Below, one piece after another: positions 15,429-64,000 of a DNA stretch of 64,000 bases (positions within the stretch are counted from its first letter, which is position 1; each line of letters begins with the position of its first letter). Source of the stretch: Nautilus pompilius (lineage: Eukaryota > Mollusca > Cephalopoda > Nautilida > Nautilidae); assembly GCA_018389105.1 (NCBI GenBank), contig JACATO010002204.1:434001-498000 (forward strand), read 5' to 3'. Below the pieces are notes generated by a model. The model was not told where the DNA came from, did no database searches, and worked only from the letters and a program-made list of their open reading frames with translations. A program made the translations under genes and the position numbers.

Positions 15429-16485
15429 ATGACCGAGCGCATTGAGCAAAGATATTGTATCAAATTCTGCCAAAAACTTGGTGATACGCGATCCCAGACT
15501 ATCGAGAAGATTCAGAAGGCCTTTGGAGATGATGCTATGGGAAAAACACAAATAAAGGAGTGGTAAACCAGTTCAAAGATGGCTGCACCTCAATGGACAA
15601 TGAACCATGTTGTGGCAGACCATCGACTAGCAGAAACGACGAAATGATTGCAAAGGTTCGAGGAATAGTCTATGAAGATAGTCGTGTGACTATTGAGGAG
15701 ATTGTTGCCGAAGTTGGAATCAGCCATGGGTCAGTTCAGTCAATTATACCAAGATTTGTGCATGAGGAGTGTGTCGGCCAAATTCGTACCAAAGTTGCTG
15801 TCTGACCAACAGAAAGAAAACAGAAAGGAAATCTCCCAGGACATGCTGAAGTGTGCTAGCCAAGATCAAAACTTCATGAACACTATCATCACTGGCGATG
15901 AGACATGGGTGTATGGCTATGACCCTGAAACAAAATTGCAATCATCCCAATGGAAGCATCCATCCTCGCCAAGACCAAAGAAAGCAAGACAGGTGCGCAT
16001 CAATGTTAAACTGATGATGACCTGTTTTTTTTTTTACTACAGAGGTATTGTGCACCATGAATATGCACCACAAGGTCAGACAATTAACAAAGAATACTAC
16101 CTGAGGGGTTCTTCGTCACCTTCGTGAAGCTGTGCGGCAAAAATGACCCGACCTGTGGGCAGCAAAGAACTGGCAACTCCACCATGACAACGCACCCGCT
16201 CATTCCGCCCACGTCGTCCAAGCATTCCTCGCCAAGCATAACACACCACTTGTTCGTCAGGCTTCCTACTCCCCAGACTTGGCTCTGTGTGACTTTTGGC
16301 TATTCCCAAAGCTCAAAAAAACACTCAAAGGGAGAAGATTTGAGTCAACAGAGGACATTAAGCAAAATTCGACGGCACAGCTCTACAGCATCCCAAAAAG
16401 TGATTTCCAGAAATGTTTCCAGCAGTGGCAGGAACACTGGCAGAAGTGTGTAGACTCCCAAGGCGAATACTTTGAAGGAAACTAA
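15429..16485 (+). pseudogene. Mariner transposase (D34D), lightly broken
   Basis: The start is the ATG at 15429 (MTERIEQRYCIKFCQK), the usual place some 200 bp inside the left end. Domains in order: first helix-turn-helix with SQTIEKIQKAFGDDAMGKTQ; linker GCTSMDNEPCCGRPSTSR; second helix-turn-helix TIEEIVAEVGISHGSVQSII; then SAKFVPKLLSDQQKENR. The catalytic core has ITGDETWVYGYDPETK (first Asp), LHHDNAPAHSA (second Asp) and YSPDLALCDFWLFPKLKK (third Asp, 34 residues on). The tail is WQKCVDSQGEYFEGN with a stop at 16483-16485. All three catalytic Asp are present. Frame shifts near 15565, 15745 and 16105-16145 break it. It looks like a recent loss, because the residue-level sequence is otherwise well kept. 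Confidence 0.92.
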
Positions 16486-58053: not shown

Positions 58054-58880
58054 CTAAAGCACAAAACAATTAATCAAATTTAGCTCCTTCAGAGTAGTCC
58101 CCTCCTGATTGAACACCGTGATTCCAATGCTCCTGCCACTTGTTGAAGCATCTCTGGTACTCTTTTTCCTGATGGTTTTCAGTTCCCATGCCACATTTTG
58201 GATGATGATTGGCACATCCTGAAATCTCTTTCCCTTTAGGTTGTGTTTCAGTCTGGGGAATAAAAAAAAGTCACTCGGTGCCAAATCTGGTGAATATGGT
58301 TGGTGAGGAACCAGTGGAATGTTGTGTGCAATCGTAAATTCTCATTTGGAGAATGCTGAATGTGACAGTGCATTGTTGTGAAACAATGTCCACACATCTG
58401 ACTGCTTTTCCAGGCCATTTCCATCAAAGTGCATCTCTTAGATGATTCAGGATGGCCAAATAAAACCACTGATTCACTGTCAGACCTTGTGGAACAAACC
58501 GATGGTGCACAACACCCTCAGTGTCAAAAAAAATCATCAACATCGTCTTCACATTTGAGTGAACCTGTATTGCTTTCTTTGGTCGAGGCGACAACGAGGT
58601 CCTCCACTGAGAAGACTGATACTTAGTCTTGGGGTCATAGCTGTAAATCCAAGTCTCATCACCTGTAATGATGCTGCATAGAAAGTTTTCATCTCTGGCT
58701 ACATGATCAGTGAGTTCTTGACATTGTGAGACAATGTTCCTTCTGTTCTGGAGTAAGAACTTGAGGGACAAACTTTGCTAAAACTCACTTCATTCTCAAA
58801 TCTTGAGTCAAAATTGTTTGGCATGTGATGTAGGAAATGCCAACTTCTTCAGTCACTTCACGAATCGTCATTCATCTGTC
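58054..58880 (-). pseudogene. Mariner transposase lacking its N-terminus
   Basis: Read on the minus strand from about 58880: a second helix-turn-helix with TIREVTEEVGISYITCQTIL, then KFVPQVLTPEQ. The catalytic core has IITGDETWIYSYDPKTK (first Asp), RPKKAIQVHSNVKTMLMIFF, GVVHHRFVPQGLTVNQ and YSPDLAPSDFFLFPRLKHNL (third Asp). The HDN block is degraded to a HHNA-like word in another frame (about 58370). The tail RDASTSGRSIGITVFNQEG leads to the 3' end. At least three frame breaks and the missing first domain make it inactive. Confidence 0.88.
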
Positions 58881-58903
58881 ATCATAAATTTGTTGGTACC
58901 AAA

Positions 58904-59110
58904 TGACTTTTCTATTCCCCAGACTGAAACGCACCCTAAAGGGAACAAGATTTCAGGATGTGCCAACCATCATCCAAAATGTGATGTGGGAACTGAGAAC
59001 CATTACGAAATCACAAAAGAAGAATACCAAAGATGCTTAAACAAGTGGCAGGAGCACTGGAATCACTGTGTTCAATCAGGAGGGACTACTCTGAAGGAGA
59101 TAAATTTGAT
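58904..59110 (+). pseudogene. Inverted second copy of the mariner transposase tail
   Basis: The plus strand encodes the same C-terminal stretch as the left arm: PRLKRTLKGTRFQDVPTIIQ and a degraded DASTSGRSTGITVFNQEG in shifted frames. It diverges from the left arm by scattered substitutions and a few small gaps, more than expected for a very recent palindrome. Confidence 0.85.
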
Positions 59111-59176
59111 TAACTATTTTGTGCTTCAGTTTTGTGTGAATAAATTTAACCCTGGACCTTTTTTGATCTGACCTCA

Positions 59177-59800: not shown

Positions 59801-59889
59801 TACAAAAAAAAGTCAGAAAATCAGTTGAATCCCATGATGGATTTATTCCACTGATGCCATGCCACTTTTCTGAAACATTTTATCAATAA

Positions 59890-60032
59890 CACTGGTCAAC
59901 AAATTTTTATTTTTTTTCTTTGGCAGACCATCTAGGAGTGTTTTCTGGGGTTTTGAAGGTCGCTGATTACGAATATAACATTGGTTTTGTCTGATTGGCT
60001 CTAGTTTAGAAGATATTGATAGCCTCAAATAA
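59890..60032. repeat. Left imperfect terminal inverted repeat
   Basis: Pairs with 61510-61641 in inverted orientation. The outer 12 bases are identical, and matching is patchy but clear throughout. The minus strand of this arm opens a 61-residue frame that is only a by-product. Confidence 0.8.
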
Positions 60033-60142
60033 GCCTAAACTGCTAAAATTCTCCCTGAAATACTTCAATATAGAAGCAGTAAATAATAATTTTCTGATAT
60101 TATTGAATCATTATAACATACTATAGGACAAGGGAAGGCAGC

Positions 60143-61171
60143 TTGCTTCGTTTCTTTTCTAAAGAAGATGACCTGATCTTTTGTAATGACGTTTCTGCAC
60201 TTCTTAACTGCATGGGGATCTCGTCATATGACCCAGCAGATTGGCGTCTCTTTATAGATAGCTCGAAAGCAAGTCTAAAAGTTGTACTTTTGCATAATGG
60301 CAATAAGTTTGCTCCTGTACCACTTGGCCATTCTACCAAGATGAAAGAAGAGTATGATGGTATCCAATTTGTTCTTGAAAAGCTAAATTACAACACTCAT
60401 AAATGGCTGATTTGTGTGGACTTGAAAATGGTGAATTTTCTGCTTGGTCAGCAAAGTGGGTACACAAAGTATCCCTGCTTTCTTTGTTTGTGGGATAGCA
60501 GAGCAAGAATCCAGCACTGGAGAAGGGAGAACTGGCCAGAACGAGAAAGTCTCGAAGTCGGCACAGCCAACGTCATCAATGAGCCTTTGGTACCCAGGGA
60601 TAGAATCATCTTCCCTCCATTGCACATAAAACTAGGGCTCATGAAGCAGTTTGTTAAGGCGTTGAACAAAGATGGGGATTGCTTCAAGTACATATGCAGG
60701 CAATTTCCAGGTCTTTCCATCGAAAAAGCTAAAGGTGGCATCTTCGATGGACCTCAGATTCGAACGCTCATGAGGGATTCTGACTTCACTAATCATATGA
60801 ACATGGTTGAGTTAAATGCTTGGGTGTCCTTCACAGATGTAGTGACAAACTTTTTGGGAAATCACAAAGCTGACAATTACAAGCAATTGGTCCGTAAGAT
60901 GCTTACTGCATACGAAAAACTAGGGGCAAATGTGAGCATCAAAGTTCATTTCTTGTTTAGCCACCTCGACAGATTTCCTGGTAATCTTGGTGATTACAGT
61001 GAGGAGCAAGGAGAGAGATTCCATCAAGACATCAAAACAATGGAAGAGAGGTATCAAGGCAAATGGGATGAGCACATGATGGCAGACTACTGCTGGAACC
61101 TTTTGAGAGACTGCCCGAAAGTTGCTCACAAGCGAAAATCGTATAAACGTCAATTTCACTTTTGTGAATAA
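60143..61171 (+). CDS. Putative DDE-type transposase of an unnamed family, intact frame
   Basis: The frame is open from 60107 to the TAA at 61169-61171, with AATAAA overlapping the stop. The codon at 60143 is TTG; the first in-frame ATG is at 60212. The true protein therefore either begins upstream, joined at a possible splice acceptor (AG at 60125-60126), or is N-terminally truncated. Counting from 60143, WRLFIDSSKASLKVVLLHNG (34-53) and LICVDLKMVNFLLG (89-102) give candidate catalytic D39 and D93. YPCFLCLWDSR (110-120) has a CxxC. FPPLHIKLGLMKQFVKALNK (157-176) and SEEQGERFHQDIKTMEERYQ (286-305) follow, the latter offering E288 or E291. This arrangement suggests an RNase-H-fold DDE nuclease acting on the element's ends. 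From memory the family is widespread in invertebrate genomes as unnamed proteins. It is the best-preserved frame in the window, and its GC is higher than its surroundings. Confidence 0.8.
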   Translation: MLRFFSKEDDLIFCNDVSALLNCMGISSYDPADWRLFIDSSKASLKVVLLHNGNKFAPVPLGHSTKMKEEYDGIQFVLEKLNYNTHKWLICVDLKMVNFLLGQQSGYTKYPCFLCLWDSRARIQHWRRENWPERESLEVGTANVINEPLVPRDRIIFPPLHIKLGLMKQFVKALNKDGDCFKYICRQFPGLSIEKAKGGIFDGPQIRTLMRDSDFTNHMNMVELNAWVSFTDVVTNFLGNHKADNYKQLVRKMLTAYEKLGANVSIKVHFLFSHLDRFPGNLGDYSEEQGERFHQDIKTMEERYQGKWDEHMMADYCWNLLRDCPKVAHKRKSYKRQFHFCE

Positions 61172-61509
61172 AATATTGTTTTGTGTGTTCATTGTAACTA
61201 AGAATCTAGTGTATAATAATGCTTTGCATTAATTTATGATATATAACTGATTATGTAAATGTTTTTTTCCCTTGGAGAATTAAAATTCAGCAAATTTTTA
61301 GCAAATTTTTTGTATATTCTCGAAATATATGAAAAGTGTTCATTTATTAATAAATGAAATGATGTTATATCTAACTTAACTTGTTAGATTGAGATTTTAC
61401 ACTGTCTTTGTGGTTTTGGATTATCATAAAAATCAATATCTGACATTTTTGCACTATTTAGCCGTTTTTTGTACGTTTAGTTATGGTCGCGAATGGGTGA
61501 TTTCAGACG

Positions 61510-61641
61510 AACGACCCCCCTGTGATATCTCCAAAACTAGAGCCAACTTGAAAAAACAAATGTCAGATTCGGATTCAGCGCCCTTGAAAACCCCAGAAAC
61601 CAGTCTCACTTTTCCTGCCAAAAATATTGTGTTGACCAGTG
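61510..61641. repeat. Right imperfect terminal inverted repeat
   Basis: The inverse partner of 59890-60032. The plus strand of this arm contributes part of the 112-codon frame at 61389-61727, which I do not regard as a gene. Confidence 0.8.
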
Positions 61642-64000
61642 TAATTAATCAAACAATCCCACAATGCATTGGGGAATGCTTTCCTATTAATTGGCATAGA
61701 AAGGTTGAAAAATGGTTACAAATTTAAAACACTTTAGCTTTCTAAAGTGACACACACACACATATGTAGATGCATAGCAAACATTTTAAAAATAACTTAG
61801 TGGTATTTGTTAATTTAATGTATTAATAAAGTAAAACGTTTGTTAGATAACCTTCTCTACTGGCAGTTTTCCCCTTTATAAACTAGAGAAAAGTTATGTA
61901 TGAAAAACTAAATGAAATAGTCTTCTGGCTTACTGAAGGGACTAATTAAAATTTTATTTCATTTCTCTCTCATTTGTCTTCATTATGCCGGACAACACCT
62001 CTTTGGTGCATACTTAAAAAAATATAAGACCATCTTTACATAATACCTTGTATTTAGGATAATTAAAGATACTTTTTTGGTTTTCTCAGCAGTTAAGGAT
62101 AAGCTTTCAGCTATGTGTTGTAGAAAACAAAACTTCTGGTGAAATTCAGTCCCTCCAAACCAACCATCAGCTAGTAAAAACAAACACTCTAATTTAAAAT
62201 ATCGGTCAATAAAAAGACATTAGCAAGGATGTATTTGGTTATAGAGATGCTTACTGAAGCAAGATGCTTGCAAACAAAGCACTATGAAGAAATATCAGCA
62301 TATCATTTGGTGAGGCAACAAAAATTAGAAAACAAAACAAAACATGATGTAATAAATATAGTCTCTCACATGCATTCTGGACTCAGTTGCATCAGTAGTA
62401 TATGAGAGATAGTAGCTAAAGCAACAGTCTACTAGGAGTGAAACTGTTGAGCAAGTTTCAGCAGCAAAGTAGCTCATCATCAGGTCTGTGCTCTAGTAAG
62501 AAGAGTAAAAAATAACTGAAAAGCTTGTGAATGTCTTATTCCAATTTTTCTTTGCAGTTTTATGGGGATGTTATTTTGACTAATTGTGGGGGCTTGGTTT
62601 CTGAAGCAAACTCCTTGCAACCATGCAGATTTGTCTGCTGAGCAGTAAGCAAATACTTTCATAATAGTCATGTTAGAATCTATTAAAGACCACACATTTT
62701 TGTGAAATTCTAAGTGTAACGGATCACAATATTCATTCTGCTTGTCAGTATTGGTATCCAACATTTCTAAATTTATCACTTAATGATTTCATTCTGAGTT
62801 ATGTACTGTACATTCCTCATTCACAGCAAATGTACAGTCTCCAAAAGATGGATCAGTTCCACCATTTGTTTTTCTGTTTACCTTGCTTAAACTATAAACT
62901 TGTCAACTTGCACTACTTTTTTAAAAAAAAAAAATATTTTACTTATTTTGTCCATATATATTCCTGAAATTTTAATAACTTATTCAGTTTATAGAAAATT
63001 TCAGAGTTCTAGGGAAGCTTAATGAGCAATTTCTCAAGACTTCTCCCTAAACAGAGTGCTGTTTTGGTTTCTGAGATCCATCAGATATACAACCTTGAGT
63101 ATAGTGCACCTATATTTAATGAAATTATTATTAAAATGAACATTGACATACTGAACAAACAACAAAAACAAAATCTAAACAAATAAGTAGTGCTGGCATC
63201 ACTGGAAGTGCCTACTACAATGGTTATCTTGCACCTTTGAAGAAAACCTATCAAATATCTTTGAGATCTTATAGCCACTTCCGCAGGCTCAAATTTGAAC
63301 CAAGGGACTTGACTCAATCAACATCACACTTCACCAACTACACAGATGTTGATGACTTCTGGCAGCAGAAAAGTATCCCTGAATGAACTAACCAGCTAGT
63401 TTACCAAACTTGGCATCTGTGGAATAGATCCTAGATTTTCTCAGTCACTAAGTCTACAACCATCTAAGCCCTCCAGCAACTTTTAAGCAGCTGCATGCAC
63501 TGTGGAGCAGGAATGGCCTAATTCACTCTTACCAATGGTGCAGACATGAAAAGAAACTATTCAATGTGTCTTTACCCATGAGATCTTTACATCTGGCATT
63601 AAAAAAGGGAAGGGTGTTTGAAACTTTATTCTTGAAATTTTAGCATAAAAGTTTAGCCAGGTGCAGCAATGCCATGTCGATGTGTTCAATACTTTTGAAA
63701 CCTTTTTTCCTATTTAGTGTTTATTGAGATGGGGGTTCACAGCTCTGTGGTGTTCTTCAAGCTGCTAAAGACTATTTCACTAGATGGACATACAATCTAC
63801 AGGAGAGTTACATGCCAATCTTCTAATGATTCAAAATAAGGGTGCTACTTTAGATTCAAATATTATTTATGAATGCTGAAGGGGGTATTAAAAGTTCTGT
63901 TGATAAACTTCAGCAATTACAACTATAAATCTCTCAAACTATGTTTGCTAGCAGTTTTACCTTAACATTTCTCACCAGTGGCAGCTGTAGCATTTGAACA
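61642..64000. other. Noncoding stretch, no gene seen
   Basis: No convincing frame. The minus-strand frame at 62480-62779 (99 codons) ends in a CTGATGATGAGCT-type word seen at ends of some retroposons, but its protein has no motif I recognise. A run of A lies near 62922-62935. A GGTTCAAATTTGAG word on the minus strand near 63290 resembles a B box but lacks an A box partner. Confidence 0.45.

Follow-up and report, generated by a model that had tools for sequence, protein, structure and literature searches.

Terminal repeats, flanks and open frame of the element

The window analysed here is a stretch of 64,000 nucleotides from Nautilus pompilius (contig JACATO010002204.1, positions 434,001 to 498,000 of the forward strand), and all coordinates below are those of the window. 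An element of 1752 bp at 59890-61641 has inverted repeats at its ends, is abutted by TAA on both sides and contains a long open frame. Its motifs and ends are compared below with those of the CACTA-Mirage-Chapaev (CMC) clade of DNA transposons. The features of the element are as follows.

59887..59889, no strand: left TAA target-site duplication, read from the sequence, with A at 59886
59890..60016, + strand: left terminal inverted repeat, beginning with CACTGGTCAACA, from a 127-bp local alignment with the right end
60143..61171, + strand: 342-codon open frame, probably encoding the catalytic C-terminal region of a DDE transposase of CMC/Chapaev3 type, from the open reading frame and its motifs
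60476..60487, + strand: C(2)C motif CFLC, at D93 plus 19 residues as in RAG1, from motif scan and alignment
60947..60964, + strand: H(4)H motif HFLFSH, from motif scan
61525..61641, - strand: right terminal inverted repeat, with which the + strand finishes in TGTTGACCAGTG, from the alignment of the ends
61642..61644, no strand: right TAA target-site duplication, read from the sequence, with T at 61645

Perfect 12-bp CACTGGTCAACA termini are located at 59890-59901 (+) and 61630-61641 (-), and the window contains no other perfect match to them. Allowing up to two mismatches gives six matches in the window against a chance mean of 5.57; as this count is not above chance, the window gives no indication of additional copies. 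The best gapped local alignment between the two ends covers 127 bp on the left and 117 bp on the right with a score of 89, compared with a maximum of 28 among 300 single-base shuffles. The core of the inverted repeats is recovered by BLAST as 81 bp at 81% identity, and a repeat search gives 98 bp at 78% identity. An A precedes the left TAA and a T follows the right one (A-TAA at 59886-59889 and TAA-T at 61642-61645), as read from one copy with no empty site for comparison.

The listed start codon of the 342-codon frame is TTG, and the first ATG is codon 24 (60212). Stop-free runs in the element extend to 354 codons, whereas the best of 1000 shuffled versions of it reaches 162; in the rest of the window the longest runs are 153 codons to the left of the element and 99 codons to its right. 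The length of the frame is far above chance. G+C content by codon position within the frame is 0.48, 0.33 and 0.46 (0.38 for the whole element), a pattern that fits coding sequence.

Acidic residues of the encoded protein include D39, D93, E288 and E291, the last of which lies downstream of CxxC, LH and H(4)H motifs. The protein has one CxxC (C112-C115) and one Hx(3-4)H (H269-x4-H274). An LH at residues 160-161 falls between them, and a second LH at residues 50-51 lies outside this interval. Shuffling the residues of the protein reproduces the ordered motif set, taken with loose spacing, in 309 of 20,000 trials, and the motifs by themselves are suggestive. A single-sequence structure model of the protein has a mean pLDDT of 34.9, too low to prove any fold.

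A preliminary description of this locus, made from the sequence, had reported an intact 342-codon frame between inverted repeats, common termini with TAA flanks, and D39, D93 and E288/E291 around a CxxC, and all of these are found where it had placed them. It had also put the repeats at about 140 bp; the inverted repeats are confirmed, and their length, at 127 and 117 aligned bp, had been slightly overestimated. The same description had suggested that the protein family is conserved and widespread.

Comparison with RAG1 and database searches

Chapaev3 elements belong to the same wide clade as RAG1, the enzyme that shuffles antibody genes. A stretch of RAG1 from the PDB was used as reference for the alignments and for motif spacing. 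The order of motifs, with the second D followed by C(2)C, LH, H(4)H and E, is common to the element and to Transib/RAG1. The window protein and mouse RAG1 agree in having a spacing of 19 between the second D and CxxC, and H-x4-H is of equal length, whereas the remaining spacings differ between the window and RAG1 (49 against 68, 108 against 142 and 17 against 20). Because RAG1 also carries H(4)H, this motif alone is not diagnostic of Chapaev.

An unguided local alignment with RAG1 brings the D, both C and the LH into register, at a score that is not significant (reached by 100 of 1000 shuffles). When residues 85-180 are aligned with the first 130 residues of the RAG1 stretch, spanning D to CxxC, the score is equalled or exceeded in 45 of 2000 shuffles. 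The C-terminal part aligns out of the expected register, with a score reached by 669 of 2000 shuffles, and it is misplaced in a MAFFT global alignment as well. Comparison by hhalign gives a probability of 0.6% and a P of 0.094. Taken over the whole comparison, neither the local alignment, judged by shuffling, nor hhalign shows significant similarity to the RAG1 core. Based on its position after H(4)H and on a common E-x-x-E (EQGE here, EGNE in RAG1), E291 corresponds to the RAG1 glutamate, catalytic E962, that reads Q in one RAG1 sequence (6cik).

The transposase profile search that had been proposed for this protein was carried out against Pfam-A and returned, at E values up to 10, no match to a transposase family. 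This holds for Transposase_21 (PF02992) of EnSpm/CACTA as well as for PF06918 (DUF1280), a family described in the cited passage as putative Chapaev transposases (PMC3985635). The sole Pfam listing is a glycosyl hydrolase with an E value of 0.084 and 13 bits where the cut-off is 29.6, which is below threshold and is taken as chance. Three matches from a search of PDB sequences (E 0.6 to 1) were dismissed.

Relatives were sought in viral, phage, plasmid and prokaryotic collections. In viral contigs, the whole-protein query gave four pattern matches and two protein fragments gave one and 15, none of which was confirmed, and a DNA pattern from the CxxC region gave no matches. Phage and plasmid collections yielded no relatives. 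Prokaryotic genomes were covered by a single DNA pattern, that of GERFHQDI, which matched two viral and 15 prokaryotic stretches; in a tblastn comparison of all 17 stretches the best E value among the 20 top rows is 0.082, and these matches are attributed to chance. Six peptide strings had no match in paper texts.

Probable assignment to the Chapaev3 group

Hallmarks of Chapaev elements, in the passages cited here, are 5'-CAC and GTG-3' ends, duplications of 3 to 4 bp and a DDE motif (PMC4079192). The motifs C(2)C, LH and H(4)H are given there as characteristic of the Chapaev superfamily, with a Chapaev3 element as an instance. Every Chapaev3 element examined in that work is described as having a TWA duplication flanked by A and T (PMC4079192). 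Chapaev3 is a sublineage of Chapaev according to a published figure 5 legend, and, among papers on Chapaev3 in arthropods, at least two genome reports use the label CMC-Chapaev-3 once each (PMC7268684; PMC7878743).

The element carries 5'-CAC..GTG-3' terminal inverted repeats, and its single copy shows a 3-bp TWA duplication (TAA) that has A as its 5' neighbour and T as its 3' neighbour. Its protein has C(2)C (C112/C115), LH (L160/H161) and H(4)H (H269/H274), followed by E291. It therefore resembles the Chapaev3 elements Merrow, Garfield and Conan in its CAC..GTG ends, A-TWA-T duplication, C(2)C, LH and H(4)H motifs and candidate DDE residues, as these are described in the cited passages (PMC4079192). 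The case for Chapaev3 is made by motifs, ends and target taken together. The match is one of motifs and of anatomy (ends and target), not of profiles or of alignment to Chapaev3 transposases, and the fit of the motifs was in part assessed post hoc, with the literature already known. On this evidence the locus very likely holds one copy of a CMC-clade DNA transposon that moves by cut and paste, and within that clade Chapaev3 is the most probable group.

The superfamily had been called uncharacterised in the preliminary description, a reading that the evidence does not support, as the same ends, A-TWA-T target and C(2)C/LH/H(4)H motifs are published for Chapaev3 of the CMC clade in the passages cited (PMC4079192). 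That description had also named, as evidence against novelty, a profile match to a named superfamily with the same ends and target size; Chapaev3 comes near to this, as it agrees in ends, target size, motifs and anatomy, while Pfam-A supplies no such profile match. The element is unlikely to represent a new type of transposon, and the family is probably one more of Chapaev3 type or one already catalogued.

An EnSpm/CACTA element of the same CMC clade is an unlikely alternative to Chapaev3, although several features are shared. CAC..GTG termini with 3-bp duplications are counted as compatible with EnSpm, and C(2)C and H(3-4)H are given for the whole clade, so that H(4)H alone does not decide against EnSpm (PMC12730594, cited passages). 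Chapaev3 is nevertheless preferred, mainly because of the A-TWA-T target: a TWA that invariably has A before and T after it is a reported trait of Chapaev3 (PMC4079192) and matches the flanks here, and in the cited passages this target is described for Chapaev3 and not for EnSpm. The lack of a Transposase_21 match noted above also argues against EnSpm.

It is quite unlikely that the element represents a CMC/Transib lineage apart from the named Chapaev3 families, characterised by repeats of about 120 bp, a compact form of 1.75 kb and a protein unmatched in Pfam. That the CMC/Transib clade has here a truly novel lineage with Chapaev3-like ends and target is very unlikely. The protein has no Pfam transposase match and no relative in the viral, phage, plasmid and prokaryotic collections, as such a lineage might; however, absence from collections of this kind says little, and ends, target, adjacent bases and motifs all coincide with those of Chapaev3. 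Harbinger elements have TWA as their target duplication. A PIF/Harbinger (PHIS) element, for which a 3-bp duplication is given (PMC12730594, cited passage), thus agrees in duplication length and sequence but is highly improbable, as both the CAC..GTG termini and the protein motifs C(2)C, LH and H(4)H agree with CMC and the Harbinger family is unmatched in the Pfam search.

State of the copy and neighbouring sequences

On the Chapaev3 reading, the element would encode a DDE transposase (D39, D93, E291) whose RNase H-like fold is interrupted, as in Transib/RAG1, by a C(2)C/H(4)H insertion of zinc type. The transposase would bind the inverted repeats and cleave at the 5'-CAC..GTG-3' termini, and the element would integrate into ATWAT sites with duplication of TWA (TAA here). 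We infer catalysis, zinc binding and family membership, as well as the loss of an N-terminal part.

The Chapaev3 element Garfield_BM is 2289 bp long and encodes a 556-residue transposase in two exons, compared with 1752 bp and 342 codons here; most other Chapaev3 transposases are apparently encoded by single exons (PMC4079192, cited passages). Between the aligned end of the left repeat (60016) and the listed start of the frame there are 126 bp, and stops occur in frame upstream. The copy has probably lost an N-terminal part and kept the catalytic region, and it is therefore probably non-autonomous.

Motifs and ends provide a name for a protein that lies outside all Pfam families. This would be of use in genome annotation, where frames of this kind should be masked as transposases of CMC/Chapaev3 type rather than treated as host genes. 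In other respects the element is an unexceptional transposon copy and is probably truncated.

Two mariner-type transposase fragments are present elsewhere in the window. One is located at 15693-16127 (+) and matches Transposase_1 with an E value of 2.1e-10 (40.8 bits; cut-off 24), and the other, at 58424-58771 (-), matches the same family with an E value of 5.7e-10 (39.4 bits; same cut-off) and sits approximately 1.1 kb to the left of the element. The second fragment is adjoined on the opposite strand by a 122-codon frame at 58803-59171 (+) that has no Pfam match. By eye, the middle part of this frame resembles the C-terminus of a mariner transposase; this would be a hint that two decayed elements lie next to each other.
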